Part shown: positions 8,367-23,735 of the stretch, one piece after another
How the letters are laid out: the number at the start of each line of letters is the position of its first letter
Numbering within the stretch: position 1 is the stretch's first letter
Source of the DNA: Bacilli bacterium
GTDB taxonomy: Bacteria > Bacillota_I > Bacilli_A > RF39 > UBA660
Reading direction: 5' to 3'
DNA length: 34,580 nucleotides
Assembly (NCBI GenBank): GCA_017484065.1
Contig: JAFUTX010000031.1
Location: 1 to 34,580 of the forward strand
Made by a program: the position numbers and the translations under genes
The notes under the pieces: model-generated
What the model was told of the DNA's origin: nothing
What the model saw: the letters and a program-made list of their open reading frames with translations, nothing else
Databases searched by the model: none

Positions 8367-8393
8367 GTGCATAATAGATATGAGGTATGTATT

Positions 8394-9770
8394 ATGAGCT
8401 TAGAAAAATATAATGATAAAAGAGATTTTAATAAAACTAAAGAACCAATAGGTAAAAAGGGTAAGAATAAGAAGAAACTAATATTTGTAGTTCAACATCA
8501 TTTAGCTAGAAAAGATCATTATGATTTAAGATTAGAGTGGAATGGTGTATTAAAAAGTTGGGCGGTTCCTAAAGGGCCTAGTTATAATCCTAAAGATAAG
8601 AGACTTGCTGTAATGGTAGAAGACCATCCATATACTTATCGAAATTTTGAAGGAACAATTCCTAAAGGTGAATATGGTGGAGGTACTGTAATGCTATTTG
8701 ATGAGGGAGAATGGATACCTAAATATAAACCTGATTTTAATAAAGAGATTAAATTTGAATTAAAAGGACATCGATTAAATGGCGCATGGACATTAGTTCC
8801 TTTTAAAGATGATAATTGGTTACTAATTAAAGAAGGCAATGAACCAATTAAAAATATTGATATAACTAAATATGATACAAGTATTAAAACTGGATGTACC
8901 ATGAAAGAAATAGAGAATAATAAAAAGATCAATAAAAAGAATGTAGTAGAGGGAATAACTATAACAAACCCTGATAAAATAATATTTAAAAATCCCATGG
9001 TTAATAAGATGGATATTGTTTCTTATTATCAAAAAGTTGCAGATTTAATGTTACCATATTTAGAAAACCGAATAGTAAGTGTTATTAGAGCTCCTAGCGG
9101 AATAGAAAATGATATATTTTTTAAGAAACATTTAGATAATGATGATGCTGGAATTGGTAAAATAAAAATTAAAAGTGATAAAGGCAAGAAGGAAGATTAT
9201 TACTATATAAATAGTAAATCAGCACTAATTAGTGAAGTTCAAATGAATAGTTTTGAATTTCATATATGGGGTAGCAGAGTAGAAAAAATAAATAATCCAG
9301 ACATGATGGTTATTGATTTGGATCCGGATGAAGCAATGAGTATTAATAAAGTCAGGCAAGGAGTTAAAGATTTAAAAACTATTTTAGATGAATTTAAATT
9401 ACAATCTTTTCTTAAAACAAGTGGGGGTAAAGGTTATCATGTTGTAATCCCTTTTAAAGAGAAAATAACATGGAAAGAATTTAGAGGTATTGCTAATAAT
9501 ATTGCTAAACTTATGGAAGCTAGATGGCCAGATAAATATGTAGCTAATATGAGTAAAAGTAAGAGAAAAAATAAAATATTTATTGATTGGCAAAGGAATA
9601 TTAAAGGTTCAACTAGTGTAGCACCATATTCGGTAAGATTACGTAAAAAAGCTACAGTATCAATGCCTATTTTATGGAGTGAACTAGATAAAATTAAACC
9701 AGATGAGATAACTATTGATAAAGCATTAAAAAGAATTAAAAGAAAGAATCCGTGGGCTGATTTCTTATAA
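8394..9770 (+). CDS. ligD: LigD-like protein: 3'-phosphoesterase plus primase/polymerase, no ligase domain
   Basis: 458 aa from ATG 8394 (GAGGT 7 nt upstream). A GTG at 8367 would add 9 residues but overlaps the upstream terminator. Residues 25-150 are the LigD phosphoesterase domain: VVQHHLARKDHYDLRLE with the metal-binding His and Asp, and EDHPYTYRNFEGTIPKGEYG. Residues about 188-450 are the LigD polymerase (archaeo-eukaryotic primase type): VIRAPSG, the catalytic DLD at 308-310, TSGGKGYHVVIPF, and IDWQRN at 397-402. The order PE-Pol matches PE-Lig-Pol LigD proteins, but the central ATP-dependent ligase is replaced by a linker of about 40 residues. In non-homologous end joining LigD fills, trims and seals ends with Ku. 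No Ku or separate ligase gene is in this window. It may process ends and leave sealing to another ligase. Confidence 0.93.
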   Translation: MSLEKYNDKRDFNKTKEPIGKKGKNKKKLIFVVQHHLARKDHYDLRLEWNGVLKSWAVPKGPSYNPKDKRLAVMVEDHPYTYRNFEGTIPKGEYGGGTVMLFDEGEWIPKYKPDFNKEIKFELKGHRLNGAWTLVPFKDDNWLLIKEGNEPIKNIDITKYDTSIKTGCTMKEIENNKKINKKNVVEGITITNPDKIIFKNPMVNKMDIVSYYQKVADLMLPYLENRIVSVIRAPSGIENDIFFKKHLDNDDAGIGKIKIKSDKGKKEDYYYINSKSALISEVQMNSFEFHIWGSRVEKINNPDMMVIDLDPDEAMSINKVRQGVKDLKTILDEFKLQSFLKTSGGKGYHVVIPFKEKITWKEFRGIANNIAKLMEARWPDKYVANMSKSKRKNKIFIDWQRNIKGSTSVAPYSVRLRKKATVSMPILWSELDKIKPDEITIDKALKRIKRKNPWADFL

Positions 9771-12342: not shown

Positions 12343-13065
12343 TTAATTACTATGTAAGGTAAATAACTCTTTTAGTATTTTCTTTTTATTGCGACTTATT
12401 AAGTCAGTTTTACAATTATTAAACTTTATTACATTAGTAGTAAAGTTTATACTTTGAATATTATCTAGATTAACTATACAACTTCGATGAGTTTTTAGAA
12501 AGTTACATTCATCTTTTAAATCTTCATCTATACTAGATATACTTTTATTAAGTATAAAATAATTTTCATTTGTAACTAAAAATGTTGAGTTATCATTTAA
12601 ATTTTTTTCAAAATATAGTATTTGTTCAAAAGGTATTTGATATATTTCATTGTCAACTTTAAATACATAACTTTTATCATAATTAAAAATTTTATAAGCA
12701 TAATGAAATGCTTGTTTAAGTTGTGAGAATAAACTTTCATTTGTGTTTATAAATAAGATATTAGATATTTCATTTAGTTTAGTAGTTTTAATAGTATCAT
12801 TACAAATAATAATAGGATTATTTATAAAGCTATTATTTCTTATGTCTTTAGCAAAATCCATAGATTTATCAACATCAATATTTTTAGCTAAAATAAACAT
12901 TGTTTTACCACTTAAATTCTTGATACTTTCAAGTGAATCTTTATTATATTGCTGAAATAATTTAAATCTATATGAGTAATTCTGTGGCCCCATAAATTTT
13001 GCAATAAATCTTTTATATATGTTATCTTTATTTACTACATCATCATAAATTATAAAATTAATCAT
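12343..13065 (-). CDS. LytTR-family regulator with degenerate receiver
   Basis: 240 aa. The C-terminal part (about 135-238) is a LytTR DNA-binding domain: QIPFEQILYFEKN, then NFLKTHRSCIVNLDNIQSI, the usual F-x-R-x-H-R-S-x-x-V-N-L signature with THRSCIVNL at 192-200. The N-terminal 125 residues have the receiver outline of AgrA/ComE (FIIYDD at 4-9 for the acidic pocket), but the strand that should end in the phosphorylated Asp reads MFILAKNID, with Ala/Lys at that place. It is therefore probably not phosphorylated normally. No histidine kinase is nearby. AgrA/ComE relatives often control bacteriocin loci; the bacteriocin operon 2.2 kb away is a candidate target, but this is inference. The ribosome site is weak (AGAAAGA). 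Confidence 0.85.
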   Translation of the reverse strand: MINFIIYDDVVNKDNIYKRFIAKFMGPQNYSYRFKLFQQYNKDSLESIKNLSGKTMFILAKNIDVDKSMDFAKDIRNNSFINNPIIICNDTIKTTKLNEISNILFINTNESLFSQLKQAFHYAYKIFNYDKSYVFKVDNEIYQIPFEQILYFEKNLNDNSTFLVTNENYFILNKSISSIDEDLKDECNFLKTHRSCIVNLDNIQSINFTTNVIKFNNCKTDLISRNKKKILKELFTLHSN

Positions 13066-15249: not shown

Positions 15250-17283
15250 ATGAAAAAAAATGAAATTGTAAGACAACATGATTTAAAAGATTGTGGTGTA
15301 GCATCTCTATTATCAATAATAATTCATTATGGTGGATATGTACCTATTGAGACACTCCGTATTGATTGTAACACCACATTAGAAGGTACAACTGCTTATG
15401 ATATTATTAAAACTGCAAAAAAATATGGATTTGATTCTTATGGAATTAAATTAGATAGTATTGATGATGAAAATATTAAATTACCTTGTATAGCTCATTT
15501 AGTTTTAAAAAATGGTTTATGTCATTATGCAGTTATATATAGCATTAAAAAAAATCATGTAGAGCTAATGGATCCTAGCAAGGGTAAAGTAATAATGAAA
15601 AAGGAAGAGTTTGCTTTGTACTGGACTAAGAATTTGTTACTCTTTCATCCTATTGAGTTTATCCCAATAATTAGTAAGCCTTATAATATTATTAATGTTT
15701 TAAAAAAAATTATTCTACTTAATAAGAGTACTTTATCAGTATTATTTCTTGTGAGTGCAATATTGATAATTCTTTCAATAATCACAAATTTATATTTTCA
15801 AATTGGAATTAAAAGCTTTAATAATGGAATTGATATTTTTAAGATAACAGCTACTTTTTTCTTCATACTAATTATTATAAAAGGCATCTTACATTATTAT
15901 CGAAATAAAATTGAAATATTTATTAATAATGCAATTGATTCTAAATTATTTACTAATTTCATTTATCATTTATTTTCACTTCCTCTAAAAATTTTTCATA
16001 ATCGTAGTACTGGAGAAATAGTATCTAGAATTAATGAGCTTAATAATATACGCAATTTATTTACAGAAATTCTAGTTATTGTTTTTCTTGATTCGATTAT
16101 GGCACTATTTACAATGCTAATACTTTTACATATTAACAAAGAAATGTTTTTTTGCTTATGTTTTCTAATTCTTTTATATTGTTTAGTAGGTATTGTATAT
16201 AGTAAAACTATTTATAAGAAAGTTTTAAAAAATATTGAATTAGAATCTGATTTTAATAGTTCTGTAGTTCATAATATTGAAATGATTGATAGTATTAAAA
16301 ATCTTTCTTTTACAAATACTGTAATAAAAAAGATTAATAATAAGTTATTTAGTTTTATAAATAATAATTATACTTTTAATAATTTTGTTAATATTTATGA
16401 AAATATTAAAAACGGTATATATGAGATTGGTCTTTTCTTTATAAATAGTTATGGTTTTTATTTAGTATACTTAAATAGAATTAGTATTTTGGAATTAATC
16501 ACTTTTAATAATTTATTAATCTTTATGTTTGAACCTATAAAAAATGTTATTAATATAATCCCTAAATATTATTACATTAAAGCTTCAATATATAAGATAA
16601 GTGAATTTATAAGTATTGAAAAAGAAAAACTAATATATAATGAAGAATTTATAAATGGAGATTTAGTAATTAATAACTTGTCATATAACTATAATCCTTA
16701 TAAAAAAGTAATAGATAATCTTTCTTTAATAATTAAGAAAAATTCACATGTAATGATTAAAGGTAAGAGTGGAACTGGTAAAAGCACATTATGTAAGTTA
16801 ATAACTCGTAACATAGATATTCAGAAGGGAGAGATATGTTTTTCAGAAGTGAGCATCAACGATTATAATATTGCAACGATTAGAAATAATATATTATATG
16901 TCAACCAATTAGAAAATCTATATCCTGACACAATAAAAAATAATATAATTTTTAATCGTGATTGTTCTACAAAAAAATTCCATGATATTTGTCATCTATG
17001 TGGTGTAGATAAAATTGTTAATAATAAAGTGTTTAGATATGAATCTTTGATTTTAGAAAACTCAGCTAACTTAAGTGGAGGAGAAAAACAAAGAATAATA
17101 TTAGCGAGAGCACTATTACAAGATTTTAAAATATTAATTTTAGATGAAGCGTTAAGTGAAGTTGACTACGAATTAGAAACTGAAATTATTAATAATTTAA
17201 GAAAATACTATAAAGATAAAACAATTATTTATGTATCTCATAAAAATCATGAAAAATTATTTGATGAATGTATTGAATTATAA
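15250..17283 (+). CDS. peptidase-containing ABC exporter (C39) for double-glycine peptides
   Basis: 677 aa with the three-domain PCAT layout. An N-terminal C39 cysteine peptidase has QHDLKDCGVASL with oxyanion Gln9 and nucleophile Cys15, HYAV with His92, and DPSKG with Asp108. A membrane domain of about six helices spans roughly 155-440. The ATPase has Walker A GKSGTGKS at 505-512, signature LSGGE, Walker B ILILDEALSE and a switch His in VSHKNH. It cuts precursors after Gly-Gly and exports the mature peptide. It is followed at once by two tiny genes for double-glycine precursors, its obvious substrates. No HlyD-type accessory protein is present. AGAGGAGG precedes the ATG. Confidence 0.95.
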   Translation: MKKNEIVRQHDLKDCGVASLLSIIIHYGGYVPIETLRIDCNTTLEGTTAYDIIKTAKKYGFDSYGIKLDSIDDENIKLPCIAHLVLKNGLCHYAVIYSIKKNHVELMDPSKGKVIMKKEEFALYWTKNLLLFHPIEFIPIISKPYNIINVLKKIILLNKSTLSVLFLVSAILIILSIITNLYFQIGIKSFNNGIDIFKITATFFFILIIIKGILHYYRNKIEIFINNAIDSKLFTNFIYHLFSLPLKIFHNRSTGEIVSRINELNNIRNLFTEILVIVFLDSIMALFTMLILLHINKEMFFCLCFLILLYCLVGIVYSKTIYKKVLKNIELESDFNSSVVHNIEMIDSIKNLSFTNTVIKKINNKLFSFINNNYTFNNFVNIYENIKNGIYEIGLFFINSYGFYLVYLNRISILELITFNNLLIFMFEPIKNVINIIPKYYYIKASIYKISEFISIEKEKLIYNEEFINGDLVINNLSYNYNPYKKVIDNLSLIIKKNSHVMIKGKSGTGKSTLCKLITRNIDIQKGEICFSEVSINDYNIATIRNNILYVNQLENLYPDTIKNNIIFNRDCSTKKFHDICHLCGVDKIVNNKVFRYESLILENSANLSGGEKQRIILARALLQDFKILILDEALSEVDYELETEIINNLRKYYKDKTIIYVSHKNHEKLFDECIEL

Positions 17284-17315
17284 AAAACGTAAGTAATAGA
17301 AAGAAGGTAGTAATA

Positions 17316-17453
17316 ATGATTTTAACAGATGAAGAAACACTAAAATTAAACGGTGGAGCAATTAAAACAGCAACTATAGCAGCAATAACAGCAGTAGGGA
17401 TATTTTTAGCAGGACTTTTTGATGGGTTATTTCGTCCATTAAGATGTAATTAA
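17316..17453 (+). CDS. bacteriocin precursor peptide A (double-glycine leader, GxxxG)
   Basis: 45 aa, too short for usual gene calling. Leader MILTDEETLKLNGG (1-14) has Leu at -12, Glu at -8, Leu at -4 and the Gly-Gly cut site. The core (15-45) begins AIKTATIAAITAVG, is hydrophobic, contains the helix-helix motif GLFDG (33-37) and ends RPLRCN with one Cys at 44. GAAGGT is 8 nt before the ATG. It starts 33 nt after the exporter. With peptide B it resembles a class IIb two-peptide bacteriocin, whose partners associate through GxxxG motifs and permeabilise target membranes. Activity is inferred. Confidence 0.85.
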   Translation: MILTDEETLKLNGGAIKTATIAAITAVGIFLAGLFDGLFRPLRCN

Positions 17454-17463
17454 GGAGGTTAAT

Positions 17464-17619
17464 ATGATATTAAATGATAAACAATTAATTACAATTAATG
17501 GCGGAGCTATTTCTGCTACATATTTAAATGCTATTGCTCGTGCTGCTACTGTATTGTTAGAATTAGGTAGAACAATAGGTTCTGCAATCCGTCGTGGTTT
17601 TAGTAAAAATTACTGTTAA
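17464..17619 (+). CDS. bacteriocin precursor peptide B (double-glycine leader, GxxxG)
   Basis: 51 aa. Leader MILNDKQLITINGG is the same length as that of peptide A and shares MIL, Asp5 and NGG, and both cores start with Ala-Ile. The core (15-51) is a cationic amphipathic helix with GRTIG (35-39), AIRRG (41-45) and a C-terminal KNYC with a single Cys at 51. AAGGAGG overlaps the stop of peptide A (10 nt gap), so translation is tightly coupled. A terminator follows. No immunity gene lies between the peptides and the terminator. Confidence 0.85.
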   Translation: MILNDKQLITINGGAISATYLNAIARAATVLLELGRTIGSAIRRGFSKNYC

Positions 17620-17624
17620 TCTAG

Positions 17625-17646
17625 AAAGCCCATAAGGGCTTTTTTT
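17625..17646 (+). terminator. terminator of the bacteriocin operon
   Basis: Stem AAAGCCC / GGGCTTT with loop ATAA, then a T run to 17646. GC-rich for this genome and close after peptide B. Confidence 0.92.
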
Positions 17647-19836: not shown

Positions 19837-20166
19837 TTATTGTTCGCTGTGGCAAGGACAATCTTCACCACAATCGCAATTATCGCCACAATTGCATTCT
19901 CCAGTTTCTTTGCAATTGCATCCATCAGAACAATCGCAATCATCACCACAGATACATTCTTCGCCATCTTGGCAATGACACTCATCGTATTTAATAGCCC
20001 CAGTAGGACATACATCAACTATATCATTAGCTTGAGCTTCATCGATATTTTCATTGTTTATAACATGTGATAAACCATTGTCATCAAAATCAAAATGAGT
20101 ATTATCAATAGCTACGCAAGCTCCACAACCAATACATTTTTCTTGATCTACAACAAATTTTTTCAT
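19837..20166 (-). CDS. ferredoxin fused to a Cys-rich metallothionein-like tail
   Basis: 109 aa. Residues 1-60 are a one-cluster [4Fe-4S] ferredoxin: CIGCGAC with Cys11, 14 and 17 and the fourth ligand Cys53 in DVCPTGAI. This half matches the common Gram-positive ferredoxin (Fer type). Residues 61-109 add 14 further cysteines arranged as seven C-x-C pairs (63/65, 71/73, 77/79, 83/85, 91/93, 97/99, 103/105) in an acidic Asp/Glu/Gly background, with a repeated CxCG-(D/E)-(D/N)-C unit. CxC-rich acidic tails are typical of metallothioneins. The tail could store or buffer metal for the cluster, or take up zinc or copper. AAAGGAGG precedes the ATG. It is monocistronic, minus strand. Confidence 0.9.
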   Translation of the reverse strand: MKKFVVDQEKCIGCGACVAIDNTHFDFDDNGLSHVINNENIDEAQANDIVDVCPTGAIKYDECHCQDGEECICGDDCDCSDGCNCKETGECNCGDNCDCGEDCPCHSEQ

Positions 20167-21950: not shown

Positions 21951-21983
21951 TTAAAAATATTCATAATATAAATGGTGAATATT

Positions 21984-22421
21984 ATGAATAAAGAAGAGTA
22001 TAAAAAGCTTGTTAAAAAGTATGAACCTAAGAAAAATAATTGTATGAGTTTGCTAATTTCTTTTTTAGTCGGAGGACTTATAGGTTTTATTGGACAAGTA
22101 ATAGTTAATATTTTAATTACTAGTTTTGGCATTGCTAAGATGGATGCTTATGCTTGGAGTTGTATTATCATTATTGCAAGTGGTAGTTTACTAACTGCTT
22201 TAGGTTTTTTTGATAGTTGGGTTGGTAAAGTTAAAGCTGGGTTGATTATACCTACTACTGGTTTTTCACACTCTGTTACTAGTGCAGCCCTTGATTATCG
22301 TAAAGAAGGTCTTATTACTGGATTAGGTTCTAACTTTTTTAAACTAGCTGGAAGTGTCATCTTATATGGAGTTATATCAGCATTCTTTTTATGTATATTA
22401 GAGGTGATTATCCATGGCTAG
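21984..22421 (+). CDS. spoVAC: stage V sporulation protein AC
   Basis: About 145 aa from ATG 21984 (GGTGA 6 nt upstream); ATG 21972 would overlap that site. It starts KKYEPKKN, then has membrane segments with FLVGGLIGFIGQVI, GFFDSWVGKVKAGLIIPTTGFSHSVTSAALDYRKEG and GSNFFKLAGSVILYGV, typical of SpoVAC. With SpoVAD and SpoVAE it carries calcium-dipicolinate into the forespore, and SpoVAC is a mechanosensitive channel in germination. The gene overlaps spoVAD by 8 nt, so the three form an operon. Only AC-AD-AE are present, as in clostridia, without spoVAA/AB. Confidence 0.95.
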   Translation: MNKEEYKKLVKKYEPKKNNCMSLLISFLVGGLIGFIGQVIVNILITSFGIAKMDAYAWSCIIIIASGSLLTALGFFDSWVGKVKAGLIIPTTGFSHSVTSAALDYRKEGLITGLGSNFFKLAGSVILYGVISAFFLCILEVIIHG

Positions 22422-23385
22422 TTATAAATTTAAAGATGCATATATTTATGATTTTTATAGTATAGCAGGTCCTTTAGAGAGTAAAGGGTTAATAAAAAAA
22501 TATGATTATTGTTTGAATGATTATTACTTTGGAGAAAAAACTTTTGAAATGGCCGAGGTAAAAATGCAACAAACGGTAATTGATAAACTATTATTTAATA
22601 ATGATTTAACCGATGAATATATTGATTTAATAGTTGGAGGAGATTTATTAAATCAAATAGTTGCAACTACATATAATTCTAAAAAGTATAATATTCCATT
22701 ACTTGGAGTATATAGTGCATGTGCAACATTTGTTGAAAGTTTAATAGTAGGTAGTAATTTTATATCTAATAAGATGGGACATAATGTAATAGCTATAACT
22801 AGTTCACATAACTTAACAGCAGAAAAACAATTTAGATATCCTATTGAGTATGGTGGTATTAAATATCCAACTAATACATTTACATCTACTGGTAGTGCTG
22901 GTGCTATTTTAAGTAATAAAGGTAAAATAAAAATTGAATCAGCTACTATTGGTAAAGTAATAGATATGGGTATAAAAGATGCCAATCATATGGGAGCAGT
23001 TATGGCGCCAGCTGCGGCAGATACTATATCTAGACACTTAAGCGATTTAAAAAGAGATATTAATTATTATGATTTAATCTTAACTGGTGATTTAGGATTA
23101 ATTGGAGTAGATATATTAAAAGAATATTTAAATAAAGTTTATAATATTAAGTTAAAAAAACATATGGATAGCGGCTGTGAAATATTTAGTCAAGAACAAG
23201 ATGTTAATGCCGGAGCTAGTGGTCCAGTAGCACTACCACTTGTCTTATTTAATAAAGTACTAAAATCATCTAAATATAAAAAGATACTAATTGTAGGTAC
23301 TGGATCACTTCATAATACAACTTTAGTAAATCAAAAAAATAGCATACCAGCAATTGCTCATGCTGTTAGTTTGGAGGTTTTATAA
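22414..23385 (+). CDS. spoVAD: stage V sporulation protein AD
   Basis: 323 aa, full length, with a thiolase-like fold. It has LLGVYSACATFVESLIVGSN with Cys in the place of the thiolase nucleophile (about 105-110), FRYPIEYGG, TSTGSAGAIL, IVGTGSLHN and the C-terminal NSIPAIAHAVSLE. SpoVAD binds dipicolinic acid and helps load it into the spore core. AGAGGTGAT precedes the ATG, inside the end of spoVAC. Its stop overlaps the spoVAE start (TAATG). Confidence 0.96.
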   Translation: MASYKFKDAYIYDFYSIAGPLESKGLIKKYDYCLNDYYFGEKTFEMAEVKMQQTVIDKLLFNNDLTDEYIDLIVGGDLLNQIVATTYNSKKYNIPLLGVYSACATFVESLIVGSNFISNKMGHNVIAITSSHNLTAEKQFRYPIEYGGIKYPTNTFTSTGSAGAILSNKGKIKIESATIGKVIDMGIKDANHMGAVMAPAAADTISRHLSDLKRDINYYDLILTGDLGLIGVDILKEYLNKVYNIKLKKHMDSGCEIFSQEQDVNAGASGPVALPLVLFNKVLKSSKYKKILIVGTGSLHNTTLVNQKNSIPAIAHAVSLEVL

Positions 23386-23735
23386 TGGAATATTTATATG
23401 CATTCTTATTTGCAGGAGTAGCTTGTGCATTAGCTCAAATTTTATTTAATCATACTAAATTAACAGCAGGGCATGTAACTAGTTTGTATACAGTATTGGG
23501 TGCAATATTAAGTTTCTTTGGTATATATGAAAAATGTCTTCAAAAGTTTGGTGCAGGAGCATCAGTACTTATTTCTAACTTTGGTCATATGCTATATACT
23601 TCTGCTTTAGAAGGATATAAAGCTAAAGGAATACTTGGTATATTTAGTGAGTTATTATGTAAATCAAGTGCAGCTATTACTGCAGCTATAGTATTTGCTT
23701 TTGTATTTTCATTTATTTTTAAACCTAGAGATTAA
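23385..23735 (+). CDS. spoVAE: stage V sporulation protein AE
   Basis: 116 aa with about four membrane helices and the family's conserved FAGVACALAQILFNHTKLTAGHVTSLYTVLGAILSFFGIYEK and FGAGASVLISNFGHMLY patterns. This is the SpoVAEb type, a membrane component of the dipicolinate channel. GGAGG lies 8 nt before the ATG. It is the last gene of the operon; I see no strong terminator in the 136 nt before the next gene. Confidence 0.95.
   Translation: MEYLYAFLFAGVACALAQILFNHTKLTAGHVTSLYTVLGAILSFFGIYEKCLQKFGAGASVLISNFGHMLYTSALEGYKAKGILGIFSELLCKSSAAITAAIVFAFVFSFIFKPRD

Follow-up and report, generated by a model that had tools for sequence, protein, structure and literature searches.

A class IIb-like pair of cysteine-tailed peptides encoded behind a C39-peptidase exporter

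Class IIb bacteriocins are two-peptide systems whose hallmarks are equimolar activity of the partners and GxxxG motifs (PMC8538875). In the lactobin A/cerein 7B type, adjacent peptide genes, accompanied by a C39-peptidase exporter, encode precursors with a double-glycine leader and a hydrophobic, glycine-rich core that contains GxxxG. Thermophilin 13 also consists of two GxxxG peptides with double-glycine leaders, ThmA and ThmB. Its two cysteines both lie in ThmA, and the same paper states that no bacteriocin had been reported to form a disulfide through single cysteines (PMC10059821). The class also has small immunity proteins (CbnZ, BrcI, EnkIaz, and AbpIM; 42-55 aa), and its mechanism of immunity has been termed a mystery (PMC6957408).

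Here we describe an operon from the reduced, AT-rich genome of a Bacilli bacterium, contained in a 34,580-nucleotide stretch of DNA that was analyzed as a whole (the window). The class of this genome also includes Spiroplasma-like genomes, and these traits together suggest the RF39 lineage of Bacilli. The operon shares several class IIb features: two adjacent and different precursors, a GxxxG motif in both cores, and double-glycine leaders together with a C39 exporter. In leader, core, gene arrangement, and exporter it is like the lactobin A/cerein 7B type, but it differs in that each partner has one C-terminal cysteine, conserved family-wide, and in that the system is near-universal and largely vertical in one family, where most loci lack an immunity gene. 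The single tail cysteine on each partner also distinguishes it from thermophilin 13. None of the literature searched deals with peptides of this kind in the lineage.

The operon and its conservation in the family

The first gene of the operon (window positions 15250-17283, + strand) encodes a 677-aa ABC exporter with the Pfam domains Peptidase_C39 (E 5.5e-35), ABC_membrane, and ABC_tran, all three above their cut-offs, and with DCG, HYAV, Walker A, and LSGGE motifs. It matches TIGR01193 from end to end at 369 bits, against a curated cut-off of 523.85, and is the only full-length match to a C39-bearing exporter in the genome. Two small genes follow on the same strand. Peptide A is made as a 45-aa precursor (17316-17453), with the leader MILTDEETLKLNGG (17316-17357) and the core AIKTATIAAITAVGIFLAGLFDGLFRPLRCN. 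The core is strongly hydrophobic and resembles a membrane-spanning segment; it contains the GxxxG motif GLFDG (17412-17426), in the region where prophages attach in relatives, and a cysteine at residue 44 (codon 17445-17447). The Shine-Dalgarno sequence of B (AAGGAGG, 17452-17458) overlaps the stop codon of A. Peptide B is made as a 51-aa precursor (17464-17619), with the leader MILNDKQLITINGG (17464-17505) and the core AISATYLNAIARAATVLLELGRTIGSAIRRGFSKNYC, which is amphipathic and cationic (charge +4, high helical moment). Its GxxxG motif, GRTIG (17566-17580), is followed by SAIRR, and its cysteine is residue 51 (codon 17614-17616). The operon ends in an intrinsic terminator (17623-17646), a stem-loop with a U run (-13.3 kcal/mol, z -3.6). 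Because A and B are genes of about 50 codons, annotation easily misses them.

Rereading the DNA bore out the arrangement first proposed for it, an exporter followed by two small genes with matched 14-residue double-glycine leaders, one GxxxG motif and a single core cysteine each. The leaders had been called short; such lengths are also usual in the family, being 12-17 aa in relatives. A 189-aa membrane protein encoded from 17714 was weighed as an immunity protein but dismissed, since its gene comes after the terminator and has a promoter-like site of its own, and since it is not found behind B in a genome of the same genus.

The exporter is present in 348 of 386 genomes and in 143 of the 150 genera of the window's family, and none of 23 genomes from other families of the class has an exporter match reaching 1e-60. 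Searches of genome and viral contig collections with the exporter returned unrelated ABC transporters or nothing. The sequence-only reading had asked whether relatives that keep the exporter might lack the peptide pair. This was examined and the pair survived, with 158 A-B pairs recovered from 168 loci behind the exporter, always in the order A then B and about 40% identical. Conservation of the pairs in the same place excludes a chance pair of open reading frames. When the DNA behind the exporter was read at 110 loci, A was found in each of the 108 with enough downstream sequence, and B in almost all. An A profile run on 146 genomes of the order matched 137, every one a member of the window's family, and the strong matches of a B profile across 395 genomes of the class were confined to the family as well. 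Matches to the B profile outside the family covered the leader region alone, and those that we read were unrelated double-glycine peptides, several of them encoded next to genes for ribosomal proteins. Four loci from other families of the class (L126, L127, L128, and L129) have unrelated small genes with double-glycine leaders near rplU/rpmA or other housekeeping genes. Downstream of the operon, many genera of the family have rpsU/yqeY.

The near-invariant positions of A are the double glycine, GxxDG, a proline, and the cysteine; within its GxxxG, the second glycine (residue 37) is invariant and the first (residue 33) is conserved in at least 90% of the 50 aligned sequences, in which the cysteine column is invariant too. 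In B they are the double glycine, GxxxG, RR, and the cysteine, the second glycine (residue 39) and the cysteine column being invariant and the first glycine (residue 35) and both arginines (43 and 44) at least 90% conserved. Overall, 154 of 158 A cores and 156 of 158 B cores contain GxxxG; A and B cores have no similarity to each other.

The exporter tree is broadly like that of rpoB (29 genomes; Mantel r 0.61, with 0 of 2000 permutations as high), and 20 of the 29 genomes have the same nearest neighbor in both. At exporter identities of at least 50%, the median identities are 53% for the exporter, 62% for the A core, and 53% for the B core, so the cores diverge at about the exporter's rate. 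The agreement with rpoB and the matching divergence of the cores imply purifying selection and, for the most part, vertical inheritance of the system.

How closely do these peptides relate to known class IIb precursors? Against the NCBIfam model TIGR03949 (lactobin A/cerein 7B), whose cut-off is 21.5 bits, the window's A scores 16.3 bits; several of its relatives pass, two of them at 32.8 and 29.3 bits, and 45 of 50 A members match the model at E<=0.01. B matches it weakly, one member scored singly giving 19.7 bits, under the cut-off. The window's own A and B thus score below the curated bacteriocin cut-offs. Profile searches of the PDB with A and B gave weak matches, some of them of the leader only, to CtA, a substrate of a peptidase-transporter. 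The original assignment to two-peptide class IIb was strengthened by the family-wide GxxxG motifs in both cores and by the relatives of A that pass TIGR03949. On these comparisons, the reading of A and B as a two-peptide, class IIb-like system is well supported; the system is real and conserved widely, and is best read as a new, cysteine-tailed variety.

In two genomes, G149 (loci L106/L132) and G016 (L067/L134), gene A is split right after the ..IDG codons of the conserved GxIDG, and the rest of A (..Y[IV]RPL.C[NR]) stands directly before B, beyond an inserted element. Along with phage genes, the element encodes a large serine integrase; it measures about 35 kb in G149, and in G016 its two ends are on separate contigs. 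The integrases of the two genomes share 71% identity, and that of G149 has resolvase and recombinase domains. A viral contig collection searched with the prophage integrase gave no match. These junctions imply that phages attach within A and that lysogens lose an intact A. The same kind of junction residues occurs at a contig end in G264 (L137), and a contig of G199 (L136) ends at the junction point in A. In G350 (L055), a genome with no detected B, the frame of A stops right after ..VIDG and the next gene is ParB-like, which may mark a different element inserted there. An orphan regulator of LytTR type is encoded upstream of the window operon (12343-13065, - strand), and a 240-aa protein of the same length, seemingly of the same LytTR type, adjoins the left prophage junction at L106 (381-1103 after the exporter).

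Accessory protein and protein C of relatives

That no immunity or HlyD-type gene accompanies the peptides had been noted at the outset. This is true of the window operon but not of the system, since relatives carry both, and the absence is a trait of the window's genus. Profile searches of the window genome found neither the accessory protein nor protein C anywhere.

The accessory gene, of about 140 codons, lies between the exporter and A in about three-quarters of the loci read first (81, counting duplicates). The model of its product (pLDDT 93) has an N-terminal transmembrane helix and a beta-barrel; the best structural matches are BesA, ZneB, MacA, AcrA, Spr0693, and MexA, with Z up to 7.7, and Foldseek returned nothing below 1e-3. 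The membrane anchor and barrel are like those of HlyD and other membrane fusion proteins, but the model lacks the hairpin and the lipoyl domain, and a Z of 7.7 is below the secure level. Judged from the model, the protein of relatives is probably a miniature HlyD-type accessory; unlike systems with an HlyD protein, the window has no such gene.

Protein C is encoded behind B in 60 of 168 loci and was not seen in the other 108, the window included. It is about 53 aa long, leaderless, and has one transmembrane segment. Its tail copies the GxxxG-xx-R-(C) motif of B: GxxxG is present in 60 of 60, and a cysteine lies within the last 10 residues in 30 of 60. Comparison by hhalign gave 95% for C against the B core and 0.12% for C against the A core; the score with B was 37, whereas column shuffles averaged 8 and reached at most 20, none of 200 attaining the observed score. 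Apart from C, no immunity gene recurs beside B in the loci that were read.

Protein C is like CbnZ, BrcI, EnkIaz, and AbpIM in its size, its single hydrophobic segment, the lack of a leader, and its place directly behind B. It differs from them in bearing B's GxxxG-[TS]xx-R(-C), a likeness that we have not found described, and, in contrast to loci with such a protein, the window lacks it. As small class IIb immunity proteins with a single transmembrane segment are known (PMC6957408), C is a candidate immunity protein, and its sequence suggests that it may act through mimicry of the partner B. A membrane-tethered look-alike of B would offer a testable mechanism for class IIb immunity.

Terminal cysteines and rival readings

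The C-terminal cysteines of the two partners are strictly concordant. Motif reading with hand correction found them in both peptides in 155 of 158 pairs, in neither in 3, and in only one in none. The corrected calls were L109 and L187, where longer tails follow the cysteine; L045, to which a wrong partner had been assigned; L066 and L198, which carry the cysteine with AxxxG-type spacing; and L041 (second pair), L047, and L139, where the only cysteines are internal. The three cysteine-less pairs all belong to genus g65 (G201, G365, and the second pair of G068), in which further species keep both cysteines. G068 (L041) has tandem A-B pairs, the first with both terminal cysteines and the second with neither. 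The three may derive from a single evolutionary event, so the 158 pairs do not amount to 158 independent tests; moreover, both profiles were built from cysteine-containing seed peptides, which somewhat disfavors cysteine-less ones.

The simplest account of this concordance, which extends to both types of pair within one genome, is a shared bond or a shared ligand. No DsbA-like Thioredoxin_4 or VKOR oxidase was found in 16 family genomes, in which control searches were positive. The concordance lends real support to the suggestion that a disulfide joins A and B, without proving it; the missing thiol-oxidase families speak against such a bond. A covalently joined pair, if true, would represent a design new to two-peptide bacteriocins.

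Gene order, conservation, motifs, concordant cysteines, the relation of A to class IIb, and the likeness of C to B were all observed directly. The best explanation of them, in which we place moderate confidence, is a class IIb-like two-peptide system. The dedicated C39 exporter would cut both precursors after Gly-Gly and secrete the cores. A, as a hydrophobic helix able to span a membrane, would pair with the amphipathic, cationic helix of B through their GxxxG faces in the target membrane, and a disulfide linking the single cysteine at each C terminus would probably lock them together. Related competitors would most likely be permeabilized, and presumably killed. In many relatives the mini-HlyD accessory protein would help export, and in a subset C might protect the producer by pairing with A or by occupying the site of B. 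We advance only tentatively the broader proposal that a covalent, disulfide-linked, membrane-active two-peptide system is a core and largely vertically inherited trait of the whole family, in part of which immunity would come from a leaderless membrane copy of the interaction motif of one partner.

Bacteriocins are not usually inherited vertically by nearly all members of a family, and arms races between them do not typically leave cores evolving at no more than the exporter's pace, so there is room for a role in signaling or the envelope. The exported pair would then serve the lineage as a signal or as part of the envelope (a pheromone, an adhesin, or a membrane-modifying agent), and C would be a membrane partner or receptor with B's binding motif. 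Such a role would suit a system that occurs in most of the family and was not detected elsewhere in the class, whose exporter tree follows rpoB, whose cores are conserved like the exporter, and which has housekeeping surroundings and, at most loci, no immunity gene. However, no sensor kinase or receptor recurs beside the operon, two different GxxxG peptides, one transmembrane-like and one amphipathic, are what class IIb systems have, A scores like a precursor of that class, and lysogens with a broken A persist, so that A is not essential. We regard a signal or envelope component as unlikely. Weapon or signal, the system is kept by almost every species of a small-genome family.

We consider a disulfide-free version of the weapon rather unlikely: a true two-peptide bacteriocin whose terminal cysteines are free thiols, serving metal binding, attachment to the target, or modification. 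The missing Thioredoxin_4 and VKOR oxidases fit free thiols, as would a gut setting that is probably anaerobic, and half of the C proteins keep the terminal cysteine; the strict concordance across the 158 pairs, including the two kinds in one genome, points more simply to a shared bond or ligand. That A and B are independent one-peptide bacteriocins, or leader-bearing orphans sharing only the exporter, would agree with the dissimilarity of their cores, but we consider it very improbable: the order A then B is fixed, the two are present together and change their cysteines together, and even where a prophage splits A, the distal part of the gene is still found immediately in front of B.

Other genes in the window

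Three observations made by eye concern genes elsewhere in the window. One gene (8367-9770, + strand) encodes LigD-like phosphoesterase and polymerase domains without a ligase domain. Another (19837-20166, - strand) encodes a ferredoxin-like protein with a long, cysteine-rich, metallothionein-like tail (CHCQDGEECICGDDCDCSDGCNC...). Finally, three genes at 21972-23735 (+ strand) are like spoVAC-spoVAD-spoVAE, in a genome of 1.2 Mb; their likeness suggests that spore-related functions may have been retained.
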